Shown: positions 1 to 3,005 of the stretch, piece after piece
How the letters are laid out: each line of letters starts with the position of its first letter
Numbering within the stretch: position 1 is the first letter of the stretch
Source of the DNA: Clostridiales bacterium
Lineage (GTDB): Bacteria > Bacillota > Clostridia > Oscillospirales > Oscillospiraceae
Assembly (NCBI GenBank): GCA_021203325.1
Contig: JAJQBL010000047.1
Location: 1-56,332, forward strand
Reading direction: 5' to 3'
DNA length: 56,332 nucleotides
The notes under the pieces: generated by a model
Databases searched by the model: none
What the model was told of the DNA's origin: nothing
The model's input: only the letters and a program-made list of their open reading frames with translations
Position numbers and translations under genes: made by a program

Positions 1-445
1 TAAGTATCGTATAACCTACAGCACTACTTGAGGTACTGGTAGAGCTACGGCTTATGGTTCCACCATTTACAATTAAGGTACCGCCAACTTTAACGCTTAT
101 AGCATAAGAATAACCAGATGTATTAGTCTGTGTTATCGTTCCTCCGCCTGCGGTGTCGTTGATGGTCAAAGTCATCCCTGAATTCACAACAAAGGCACCT
201 GCACTTAAGGTCGATGTTATTGTGTGCCCATTCAAATCTATTGTTAAATCGTCTGTTAATTGGCACTGCGAAGACAGCGTTACGTCACAAGTAAGCCTGT
301 ACGTCCCGCTCGTAGGCAATGAAGTGCTAGTGCTCCAATCAGTATAAGTCTCATCCGCCGCCAATGCGGTGGGCATCGTCAAACTGACCAGCATCGCGAA
401 GGCCAAAACCCACGCAAGAATCCGGCTTTTCTTTCCTCCGAACAT
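1..445 (-). CDS. Secreted surface protein, N-terminal part (runs off the window)
   Basis: The ATG at 445 is preceded by AGGAGGTATC at 451-460, a strong ribosome site. About 148 codons are visible and the gene continues past base 1. The first ~29 residues form a classic Sec signal peptide (basic start with GGKKSR, hydrophobic core, cleavage after ALAA). The mature part is rich in Thr, Ser and Gly, with motifs such as TIDLNGHTIT, TINDTAGGGTI and LIVNGGTIS. These resemble the repeating strands of right-handed beta-helix surface proteins often found with SLH or Ig-like domains in gut Clostridia. The C-terminal anchor is outside the window, so the family is inferred only. No convincing promoter lies directly upstream; the nearest candidate is inside the putative invertible segment at 781-927. 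It may be a phase-variable adhesin or polysaccharide-binding protein. Confidence 0.75.
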   Translation of the reverse strand, partial: MFGGKKSRILAWVLAFAMLVSLTMPTALAADETYTDWSTSTSLPTSGTYRLTCDVTLSSQCQLTDDLTIDLNGHTITSTLSAGAFVVNSGMTLTINDTAGGGTITQTNTSGYSYAISVKVGGTLIVNGGTISRSSTSTSSSAVGYTIL

Positions 446-460
446 TTAAAGATACCTCCT

Positions 461-769
461 TAGATTTTTAAATTTTCGTTTTGTTGTAAACAGGGCCGCT
501 GTCGTGCGGGCGCCCCGTTTCTCTCCTGAAACCTTCCGCTTTTTCGCAAATGGGAACACACCAATTCCTGAATCAGCATCACCCTCACTCTTCTCTCCCA
601 CAGGAGCCGCAGGCGCCCGCTGTGAGGCGTATGTTCCGCTGGAGCGCAGCCCTTTCTCATCATATTTCATGACAATACACGTCTGTTTTCCCCCACAGAA
701 CAGCTGTGCGTCCGGTTCTTCCCGCAGCGCGGTGTATACTCCCGCTGCGCTGCTTCTGTTATCCTGATG
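461..769 (-). other. Long untranslated leader of the surface protein gene
   Basis: This stretch between the surface gene and the left recombination-like site holds no open frame with coding character. I see no clear sigma-A promoter reading toward the surface gene; a TTTACA at 484-489 (minus strand) has no acceptable -10. If the gene is driven from the inverted segment, this would be a leader of roughly 370 bases. Confidence 0.4.
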
Positions 770-789
770 CAGGAAGGTTTACCTTCCTG
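770..789. repeat. Dyad site A, left putative recombination site
   Basis: Nine-base arms (770-778 and 781-789; CAGGAAGGT / ACCTTCCTG) flank the central dinucleotide TT at 779-780. The matching site at 921-936 has the same seven-base inner arms but AA in the centre, so the crossover dinucleotides are in inverted orientation. A pair of short dyads with a two-base asymmetric core is the layout used by serine invertases of the Hin/Gin type. The outer flanks (GATGC and CTGTCGG) match in direct orientation, which is an unresolved complication. Confidence 0.6.
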
Positions 790-927
790 TCGGGCAGTCT
801 CCGCCCCATCGGCCATGCAATTTTTTCTGCGTTTTCATCGAATAAGTGCTTGTGTTTTGCGGCATTGTGTATTATAATGAGTCATGAGAATGTGTGCCCT
901 GATGAATATTCAGCGATGCGGGAAGGT
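781..927. other. Putative invertible promoter segment
   Basis: About 149 bp lie between the centres of the two dyad sites. The segment is AT-richer than its surroundings and carries a promoter-like sequence but no gene. Together with the adjacent serine recombinase and the promoterless surface gene, it has the layout of a phase-variation switch. Inversion itself cannot be seen from one sequence. Confidence 0.5.
850..878 (+). promoter_or_regulatory. Sigma-A-like promoter inside the putative invertible segment
   Basis: TTGTGT at 850-855, a 17-base spacer, and a perfect TATAAT at 873-878, reading rightward and away from the surface gene. The -10 lies in the palindrome ATTATAAT, so a TATAAT also exists on the minus strand at 876-871, but its -35 (GGCACA with a 16-base spacer) is poorer. 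The present orientation is therefore probably, not certainly, OFF for the surface gene. Confidence 0.5.
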
Positions 928-936
928 AAACCTTCC
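921..936. repeat. Dyad site B, right putative recombination site
   Basis: Seven-base arms GGAAGGT (921-927) and ACCTTCC (930-936) flank the central dinucleotide AA at 928-929. Read on the minus strand, the 18 bases from 938 to 921 are identical to 770-787 of site A. The site lies about 100 bp beyond the stop codon of the serine recombinase gene. Confidence 0.6.
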
Positions 937-977
937 TGTCGGCAGACGCGGTAGCGCGCCGCGCATCCGGGCCAAAC

Positions 978-1005
978 CGCCGCCGAATGTGCGGCGTTTC
1001 TTTCT
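978..1005 (+). terminator. Small terminator facing the putative invertible promoter
   Basis: CGCCGC (978-983) pairs with GCGGCG (991-996) around a seven-base loop and is followed by TTTCTTTCT. It would stop transcripts leaving the invertible segment rightward before they run antisense through the recombinase gene. Confidence 0.45.
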
Positions 1006-1032
1006 GCCGCTGAGGCCGCGTGACCCCCCTTC

Positions 1033-1632
1033 TCATCCCGTGCCCTCGTACCGCTGGGCGCGGTACCGGAACGAGGACACGGGCATGCCGCACTTCCTTG
1101 CCACGTTGGCGCAGGTGCTTTCGCCGGACTTCCACTGCCTGTACCAGTAGTCAAAGTTGTCGGGCAGCGGAGCGGGGATTCTGCCGCACCAGACGCCCCG
1201 GGCCTTCGCGGCGGCGATGCCCTCCGCCTGACGCTGACGGATGTTTGTCCGCTCGTTTTCCGCCACGAAGGAGAGCACTTGCAGGACAATGTCCGAAACA
1301 AAGGTGCCCACAAGGTCTTTGCCCCGCCGGGTGTCCAGCAGCGGCATATCGATCACGCAGATGTCGATGCCTCTTTCCTTTGTGAGGACGCGCCACTGCG
1401 CCTGAATCTCCTCATAGTTGCGCCCCAGCCGGTCGATGCTCTTGATGTAGAGCAGGTCCCCCGGCTTTATTTTTTTCAGCAGACGCTGATACATGGGGCG
1501 GTCAAAGTCCTTTCCGCTCTGCTTGTCCAACAGGATATTTTTCTCAGGCACCTGCTGTTCCCGCATGGCGATCATCTGCCGGTCCTCGTTCTGTTCCTTT
1601 GTGCTGACACGCACATAACCGTAAACATTCAT
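1033..1632 (-). CDS. Serine recombinase, DNA invertase/resolvase family
   Basis: About 199 residues, the size of small invertases (Hin, Gin, Pin) and resolvases. The N-terminal resolvase domain opens with YGYVRVSTKEQ, whose serine at about residue 9 is the expected nucleophile. Further family motifs are DKQSGKDFDRP, LYIKSIDRLGRNYEEI, and an E helix with ENERTNIRQRQAEGI. A short C-terminal helix-turn-helix-like segment (STCANVARKCGMPVSSF) would bind DNA. The ATG at 1632 sits about 8 bases after GAGG; an in-frame ATG at 1638 is too close to it. It acts in the cytoplasm by double-strand cleavage at short dyad sites. The adjacent dyads at 770-789 and 921-936 are its likely substrates, which is inference. 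Confidence 0.9.
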   Translation of the reverse strand: MNVYGYVRVSTKEQNEDRQMIAMREQQVPEKNILLDKQSGKDFDRPMYQRLLKKIKPGDLLYIKSIDRLGRNYEEIQAQWRVLTKERGIDICVIDMPLLDTRRGKDLVGTFVSDIVLQVLSFVAENERTNIRQRQAEGIAAAKARGVWCGRIPAPLPDNFDYWYRQWKSGESTCANVARKCGMPVSSFRYRAQRYEGTG

Positions 1633-1847
1633 TTTCATTACCTCATTTCGTAATTGTCGCTCGCGCCTGCCGGCAGTCTGCGCTCTGACCGCTGCTGGAG
1701 TGGGGAACAACCGTCAGTAATCACCTCTTTATACAACAAAATATAACAAAAAAGAGCGCCGGAATCATTATATCTGACACTCAACTACAGTTTATGATTT
1801 TGCCTTGCTTCCTGCGGGGCCCGGAAGGCCGAAATCGGGCAGACCGC

Positions 1848-1940
1848 CCGGCCATTCCGGACGCCCGCGCCCGCTACCCGGACAGCAGCCTGGCCGATTT
1901 GTATGATGAGGCGACCATGCCGCCGGAGCTGCGCACCGCC
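1848..1940 (+). pseudogene. Decayed C-terminal fragment of a DNA methyltransferase
   Basis: Translated in frame with 1794, about 30 residues contain ARYPDSSLADLYD and TMPPELR. These match, from memory, the well-conserved C-terminal motif of large class I DNA methyltransferases (…ARA.YPDSSLADLYDPLTMPPEL.KAH…). The reading frame breaks into non-homologous sequence on both sides. No catalytic motif (NPPY) remains nearby. It suggests that a restriction or mobile module once stood beside the recombinase gene. The rest of the gap 1640-2019 holds only the DUF1002 promoter. Confidence 0.5.
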
Positions 1941-1944
1941 CCCC

Positions 1945-1972
1945 TTGCATTTTTCAAAACCTGTGTTATACT
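1945..1972 (+). promoter_or_regulatory. Promoter of the DUF1002 gene
   Basis: TTGCAT (1945-1950), a 16-base spacer, TATACT (1967-1972). The gene starts 48 bases downstream after an AGAAGGGAG ribosome site. Confidence 0.6.
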
Positions 1973-2019
1973 GAAACTGCACCTGAAAGAACACCTGCCA
2001 GAAGGGAGATTCGTATCAT

Positions 2020-2937
2020 ATGAAGAAGTGGAACAAATTCATCGCCGGGGCGCTGGCCCTGAGCATCCTGACCGCGCTGCCCACCGCCGCCCTGGCCGCC
2101 GGCGACACCGCGGAGGAAACCGTGTCCGGATACCTGATTTTGGGGGAGGACCTCAGCGACAGCCAGGAGAAAACCGTGCTGAAGCTGCTGGGCGTTTCCG
2201 ACCTCTCGGAGTACGAGGTCAGCTACACCACCCACGAGGAGGAAGAGGAGCTGTTCGGTTCCTACCTCTCCGCCTCCCTGCTGGGGACGAAGGCCCTGTC
2301 CTCCATCCTGCTGGTGCCCGCAGAGGAGGGCAGCGGCATCACCGTCACCACCTATAACATCAGCTACTGCACCGAGGAGATGTATCAGACCGCCCTGGCC
2401 GACGCGGGGGTGGCGGATGTGGAGGTCTATGTGGCGGCCCCTACCTCCCTCAGCGGCACCTGCGCCCTGGCCAGCGCCTTCAAAGCCTACTCCATCATGA
2501 CCGGTGAGGAGCTGGACGAGGACGCCACCGACGCCGCCGCGGAGGAGATCGTCACCACCGGCGAGGTGGGTGAGGCCATCGGCGACAGCGACACCGCCAC
2601 CAAGCTCATCACCGTCCTGAAGGAAAAGGCCCTGTCCGAAAATCTGAGCGAGGACGAGATCGGCGACACCCTGGACCAGCTCTGTGAAAACATGGGCGTC
2701 ACCCTGGACGACGAGCTCCGGCAGAAGATCATTGACCTGATCGTCAAGCTGCAAAACGCGGACCTTGACCTGGACACCATTAAACAGCAGGCTTCCGCCC
2801 TGTACGACTCCATCAAGTCCGAGCTGGAGAAGCTGGACGCCAGCGGGGTCACGAACGGCAGCTCCAATGCGTTTGTCGCGCTGATTCAGTCCATCGTGAA
2901 CTTCTTCAAGAGCCTGTTCAGCAACCTGTTCGGCTGA
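2020..2937 (+). CDS. DUF1002 (YpuA-like) secreted protein
   Basis: 305 residues. The N-terminus (KKW.KFIAGALALSIL…AALA) is a Sec signal peptide with cleavage near residue 26, so the protein is exported. The body matches the DUF1002 family known from Bacillus YpuA: a start around SGYLILGEDLSDSQEKT, the ALSSI segment near residue 90, then SGITVTTYNISYCTEEMYQ and VAAPTSLSGTCALAS. The C-terminal third is predicted helical, ending in a hydrophobic tail (FFKSLFSNLFG). The molecular function of the family is unknown. It has its own promoter; no terminator hairpin is obvious downstream. Confidence 0.85.
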   Translation: MKKWNKFIAGALALSILTALPTAALAAGDTAEETVSGYLILGEDLSDSQEKTVLKLLGVSDLSEYEVSYTTHEEEEELFGSYLSASLLGTKALSSILLVPAEEGSGITVTTYNISYCTEEMYQTALADAGVADVEVYVAAPTSLSGTCALASAFKAYSIMTGEELDEDATDAAAEEIVTTGEVGEAIGDSDTATKLITVLKEKALSENLSEDEIGDTLDQLCENMGVTLDDELRQKIIDLIVKLQNADLDLDTIKQQASALYDSIKSELEKLDASGVTNGSSNAFVALIQSIVNFFKSLFSNLFG

Positions 2938-3005
2938 GGGACTGCTGCGGGGGATACCGGTTAAAAAAATCTGTCACAATCCCGCCGGAAAGCGCATAAA
3001 ATCTC

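Follow-up and report, generated by a model that had tools for sequence, protein, structure and literature searches.

The Hin and Gin invertases act on inverted dyad sites with a 2-bp core, and the Mpi master DNA invertase flips promoters, acting on many distant ones. Invertible promoters of gut bacteria ('invertons') were reportedly described by Jiang et al. in 2019. The locus analysed here has features in common with all of these. It shares with invertons short inverted repeats around a promoter, with cell-surface and recombinase genes nearby. It shares with Hin and Gin the size of the recombinase and inverted dyad sites with a 2-bp core, but its enzyme reaches only 53-54 bits against the PDB chains named DNA-invertase (3uj3, 4m6f). 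Like the Mpi family (NF009949) it relies on a small serine recombinase, yet the enzyme scores 42.2 bits where the equivalog cut-off is 272, and there is one adjacent site pair with no near match elsewhere in the assembly. Among solved structures the catalytic domain is best matched by Sin and Tn552 bin3 (2r0q and others), from which the locus differs in having inverted simple sites downstream of the gene and no resolution site. In PMC11892184 the most significant link between invertons and an invertase, that of group 139 (32 of 33 invertons from Clostridia), is to a tyrosine-type recombinase, whereas here a small serine recombinase has its site pair immediately 3' of the gene that encodes it. 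Judged from sequence, the locus would operate as an inverton served by a serine recombinase of its own, and genetic switches of this kind are known; in the literature consulted we recognised no description of this serine-recombinase family, which is no claim of its absence from print.

The window, by which we mean the whole 56,332-nt stretch of DNA that was analysed, is one contig (C159) of an assembly that totals 2.57 Mb and comprises 160 contigs. Read along the minus strand, the locus runs from the serine recombinase through a hairpin, site B, the segment, site A and a leader to the secreted-protein gene (Table 1). Upstream of the recombinase lies a gene for a secreted DUF1002 protein (PF06207; 2020-2937), which is ordinary context, and Rfam gave no match at E up to 0.1 over positions 1-2200.

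Table 1. Coordinates of the predicted switch in the window
Feature	Position	Strand	Basis or detail
Start of cargo gene, secreted repeat protein	2..445	-	ORF; 148 codons, then contig end
Leader, site A to start codon	446..771	-	Shine-Dalgarno-like AAGGAGGT at 454-461, by eye
Recombination site A (predicted), GGAAGGT-TT-ACCTTCC	772..787		core 779-780
Predicted invertible segment between both cores, 147 bp	781..927		homology to L035 and L037 segments
Sigma-A-type promoter TTGTGT-17-TATAAT, pointing away from cargo gene	850..878	+	weight-matrix score
Recombination site B (predicted), GGAAGGT-AA-ACCTTCC	921..936		core 928-929
Terminator-like hairpin 978-996 with T-rich tail	978..1005	+	terminator scan
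Small serine recombinase, 199 aa, predicted invertase	1033..1632	-	PF00239

The recombinase reading frame is intact and matches PF00239 (E 4.1e-28) over residues 3-148; the protein has a resolvase-type catalytic domain and a length of about 200 residues. The closest solved structure to the catalytic part is 2r0q (E 2.1e-27). The description of the enzyme in the earlier note as a Hin/Gin-sized serine recombinase stands as to class and length, whereas in structure it is nearest to Sin/Tn552 bin3 and not to Hin or Gin. Among the best 80 of 436 relatives, identity reaches 94%, and the three closest recombinases (91-94%) lie on contigs labelled Clostridiales, Lachnospiraceae and Tannerellaceae; relatives in IMG/VR, at 11 loci, are at most 74% identical.

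The two dyads with mutually inverted TT and AA cores, which the earlier note had picked out, were confirmed. They are embedded in an 18-nt inverted repeat (770-787 against 921-938, 100% complementary, 133 nt between) that brackets a short intergenic segment as in invertons, with 149 nt from core centre to core centre and the 2-bp cores in opposite sense, as small serine invertases require. The longest separated inverted repeat in 300 dinucleotide shuffles of window positions 1-3000 was 15 nt. One of 17 other 3-kb tiles also yielded an 18-nt repeat; when that tile was rescanned for arms of 14 nt separated by 20 nt or more, there were none, so we discarded it as a separated pair and take it for a local hairpin. 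Elsewhere in the 2.57-Mb assembly nothing nearly matches the 20-nt site pattern, the next best sequences needing three mismatches, and sites A and B fit the family motif described below strongly (28.1 and 29.8 bits). The wider 28-nt units around them (766-793 and 915-942) are direct repeats, 89% identical, and simple duplication could be an alternative origin of these surroundings; we set the direct-repeat reading of the sites aside because the cores are inverted across the whole family.

The arms of the sites bear on past exchange. The unlike arms at each window site match at 17 of 28 positions as assembled and would match at 25 of 28 if the segment were flipped, and inversion would turn both sites into nearly perfect palindromes. 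The same comparison rises from 11 to 20 at L052 and from 17 to 19 at L204, two loci with homologues (L108 and L203) in the opposite orientation. As a general marker of past inversion, arm symmetry was rejected: over 64 rows, 25 are better as assembled, 26 better if flipped and 13 equal. Given this balance, the window arms support inversion, and with it an exchange at the dinucleotide in this lineage, without proving either.

Between the cores, our own weight matrices score the promoter at 11.3, against 5.3 ± 2.1 in shuffles (about 2.9 s.d. above) and 5.6 on the other strand, and the best leader candidate on the minus strand, at 490, at 7.2. The strict consensus scan listed no promoter in 400-1900, and the -35 box is weak, fitting TTGACA at only 3 of 6 positions. 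Thus the promoter with a perfect TATAAT proposed earlier, which inversion could turn to face the gene as in an inverton, is recovered by weight matrix but absent from the strict scan. The small terminator proposed beside it corresponds to the plus-strand hairpin in Table 1; the terminator scan found three terminator-like sites where 2.0 ± 1.3 are expected by chance, and L035, L036 and L037 show, by eye, a comparable hairpin in the equivalent position. Since the promoter points away from the gene and towards this hairpin, the assembled orientation is probably OFF, which upholds the state assigned at first. In the mechanism we propose, the recombinase would bind the two inverted dyads, cut at the central dinucleotide and invert the segment. 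In the ON state the promoter would fire towards the secreted-protein gene at 445; in the OFF state it would fire away from that gene and into the hairpin, which would stop the transcript before it ran antisense into the recombinase gene. We infer that the gene depends on the segment promoter, that this recombinase flips the segment here and that the hairpin insulates the recombinase gene.

The arrangement was then sought around related recombinases. At E <= 1e-30 the recombinase query has matches in 53 of 148 related genomes, the window's own among them. Of 436 confirmed relatives from the contig search we retained the best 80, and 131 tblastn hits reduced to 109 distinct loci, window included, with viral loci and duplicates left out. 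Sites were located with a half-site motif, TACAGGAANGT, trained on the first sites of the same loci, which are not independent of one another. There are 97 loci, counting the window, with at least 260 bp 3' of the recombinase stop. A site pair is present in 69 of them, with 113-203 bp between the paired sites; a single site was found in 10 and no site in 18. Loci short of a pair, such as L040 and L036 (recombinase 91% identical), may be decayed, have sites in another place or have diverged too far for the motif to detect. The core dinucleotide was ignored when sites were chosen, and the second core is nevertheless the reverse complement of the first in 69/69 pairs: GT/AC in 60, AT/AT in 5, TT/AA in 2 (the window and L074), CT/AG in 1 and AC/GT in 1. 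When cores were re-dealt at random in 20,000 trials, complementary pairs averaged 52.6 and never exceeded 60. The AT/AT pairs do not separate inverted from direct sites because AT is self-complementary; at the loci with AT at both sites (L008, L060, L028, L031, L209) the core does not fix inversion as against deletion. At four further loci (L041, L042, L044, L045) three sites lie within 250 bp 3' of the recombinase stop, two of them 24 bp apart.

Promoters, arms and cargo were compared without the pairs of L008, L034, L057, L085, L112 and L208; for promoters and arms this leaves 64 segments, namely 63 pairs and the second segment of L035. On average the stronger strand of a segment scores 3.8 above shuffles and the weaker strand -0.2. 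The best promoter has a 17-nt spacer in 52 of the 64, a spacer that the scoring favours. In 47 segments it points away from the cargo, in the other 17 towards it. Neither strand stands out from shuffles in several loci, for example L055, L056 and L062.

Comparison of relatives for reversed segments, a check proposed at the outset, found them. With homology defined as a local score of at least 45 (the largest of 3000 shuffled comparisons gave 29), 33 homologous segment pairs share an orientation and 14 are opposite. In two genomes of the window's genus, L203 and L204 carry 124-bp segments that are 98% identical and oppositely oriented, before proteins that begin almost identically; that of L204 has an Eco57I-type methylase domain. 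The segments of L042 and L044 are 95% identical over 122 positions and also opposed, and the two loci fit inversion of the entire outer interval. A third case lies within one MAG, G532, where the segments L232:3184-3350 and L037:1428-1589 agree at 122 of 126 positions, each before a secreted repeat-protein gene, but are turned opposite ways with respect to these genes and have their arms swapped at the core. The G532 recombinase is 92-93% identical to that of the window; beside the L232 segment there is only a recombinase remnant (residues 150-197, 56%). As G532 has a single recombinase match at E <= 1e-20, the two genes may share one enzyme; this MAG carries the label Tannerellaceae and may be mixed.

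The window segment itself shows homology to two others: it aligns with the second segment of L035 in the same orientation (89/128) and with that of L037 in inverted orientation (75/128; score 82, against up to 61 in shuffles and 32 forward), although under stricter local scoring the alignment with L037 does not extend beyond 12 bp and is not significant. Under that stricter scoring, L035 and L037 score 105 inverted and 17 forward. A DNA search of the genus matched 12 of 31 other genomes, but every match coincides, give or take 2 bases, with the recombinase gene, so the 31 yielded no orthologous switch; a class sample of 390 other genomes gave no match at E <= 1e-100. In IMG/VR, 21 letters of the window segment had no match, and an exact-dyad scan, uninformative on this point, gave at least 80 stretches, among which each one listed had one dyad and none a pair.

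We take the locus to be an invertible-promoter phase-variation module, with a probability of roughly 0.92, inversion being predicted from one assembly and its relatives. The coupling of recombinase, sites, promoter and gene, first put forward for this locus alone, is supported by its recurrence in dozens of diverged relatives with segments in opposite orientations. An alternative is that the switch is real in the family but locked or inactive in this lineage, its sites remnants and its segment permanently OFF; a single orientation is known at the window locus. Relatives such as L036 and L040, in which no site pair is detectable, and the orphan segment beside a recombinase remnant in G532 also speak for it. 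At the window, though, the recombinase frame is intact, both sites retain their strong fit to the motif and the cores match each other, and we regard a locked switch as improbable.

Much less probable still is a Sin/Tn3-type resolvase for which the dyads are resolution sites or operators serving deletion or regulation, a reading that would suit the nearest PDB structures and the directly repeated 28-nt units. Res sites are directly oriented and usually lie upstream of the recombinase gene, whereas this pair lies downstream with inverted cores; complementary cores in every pair of the family, five of them the non-discriminating AT, and homologous segments found inverted speak against it as well. 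As for chance or unrelated palindromes (terminators or repeats) near an unrelated recombinase, the negative strict promoter scan is what they would predict, but the family comparison contradicts them: a repeat beyond what shuffles produce, with no near match in the assembly, complementary cores among relatives and opposite orientations leave this explanation scarcely credible.

What the predicted module would control appears to vary. The window cargo has a signal-peptide-like start, by eye, and a repetitive pattern in its first 148 codons, and no Pfam or NCBIfam match. It is identical at 40 of 96 residues (E 1e-10) to the cargo protein of L035, which is complete at 1255 aa, begins with a signal-peptide-like start and, by eye, lacks an LPXTG motif. 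Of the earlier designation 'secreted surface protein', the start and the repeats are visible; given the missing motif in L035, and with the window gene cut at base 1, the contig end, 'surface' is only partly verifiable and unproven. Across the family, the scan covered 60 of 63 predicted first downstream ORFs, all but those of L044, L048 and L013; the ORF choice was scripted, with 2-445 entered for the window in place of a short ORF, and other choices may be wrong. The 25 of 65 families listed include zinc ribbon (5), SLH (4), LRR_5 (4), Eco57I methylase (4), TadZ-like receiver (3), AMP-binding (2), condensation (1) and Helicase_C (1), and a PADLOC type II methyltransferase model matches five cargo members; Pfam gave nothing for the 290-aa cargo protein of L042. 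Methylase or helicase domains occur in the genes behind putative invertible promoters at L204 (whose protein start is near-identical to that of L203), L111 (domain match below its Pfam cut-off), L051 and L054, which suggests phase-variable restriction or defence at these loci.

The two cores of a pair vary in step (GT/AC, CT/AG, TT/AA, AT/AT). At L035, the locus with the closest recombinase among the best 80 of 436 relatives, two putative invertible promoter segments lie in series behind one recombinase (L035:4726-5245), one with GT cores, whose second site is degenerate (8.6 bits), and one with TT cores, whose TT/AA pair falls outside the count above; the window carries a predicted TT switch homologous to this second segment. 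PMC8748976 describes two invertible regions after one invertase in the IP-ARG-2 loci of Bacteroidales, resistance loci from which L035 differs in that its two regions have different cores. We offer only tentatively, and with more doubt than confidence, the idea that the central dinucleotide works as an address label; if true, one enzyme could run the two L035 switches, which would be unable to recombine with each other. Further TG/CA-core dyads in the L035 genome were considered as labelled switches and rejected, as they lie inside ORFs whose products resemble, by eye, an ABC-transporter ATPase and a carboxylase-type protein.

Through the comparison, what began as one suspected switch can be recognised as a module, in which the gene of a small serine recombinase is followed on its 3' side by an inverted site pair. 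What is possibly new is the variety of genes behind it, together with the linked core changes. Its predicted cargo extends from S-layer-homology and leucine-rich-repeat proteins to restriction-modification methylases, a helicase, a condensation-domain (NRPS-type) protein and TadZ-like receiver proteins, and the site motif can be used directly to search Clostridia for phase-variable genes, some defence genes included. The linked cores might insulate neighbouring switches from one another, and they make insulation by core identity directly testable.
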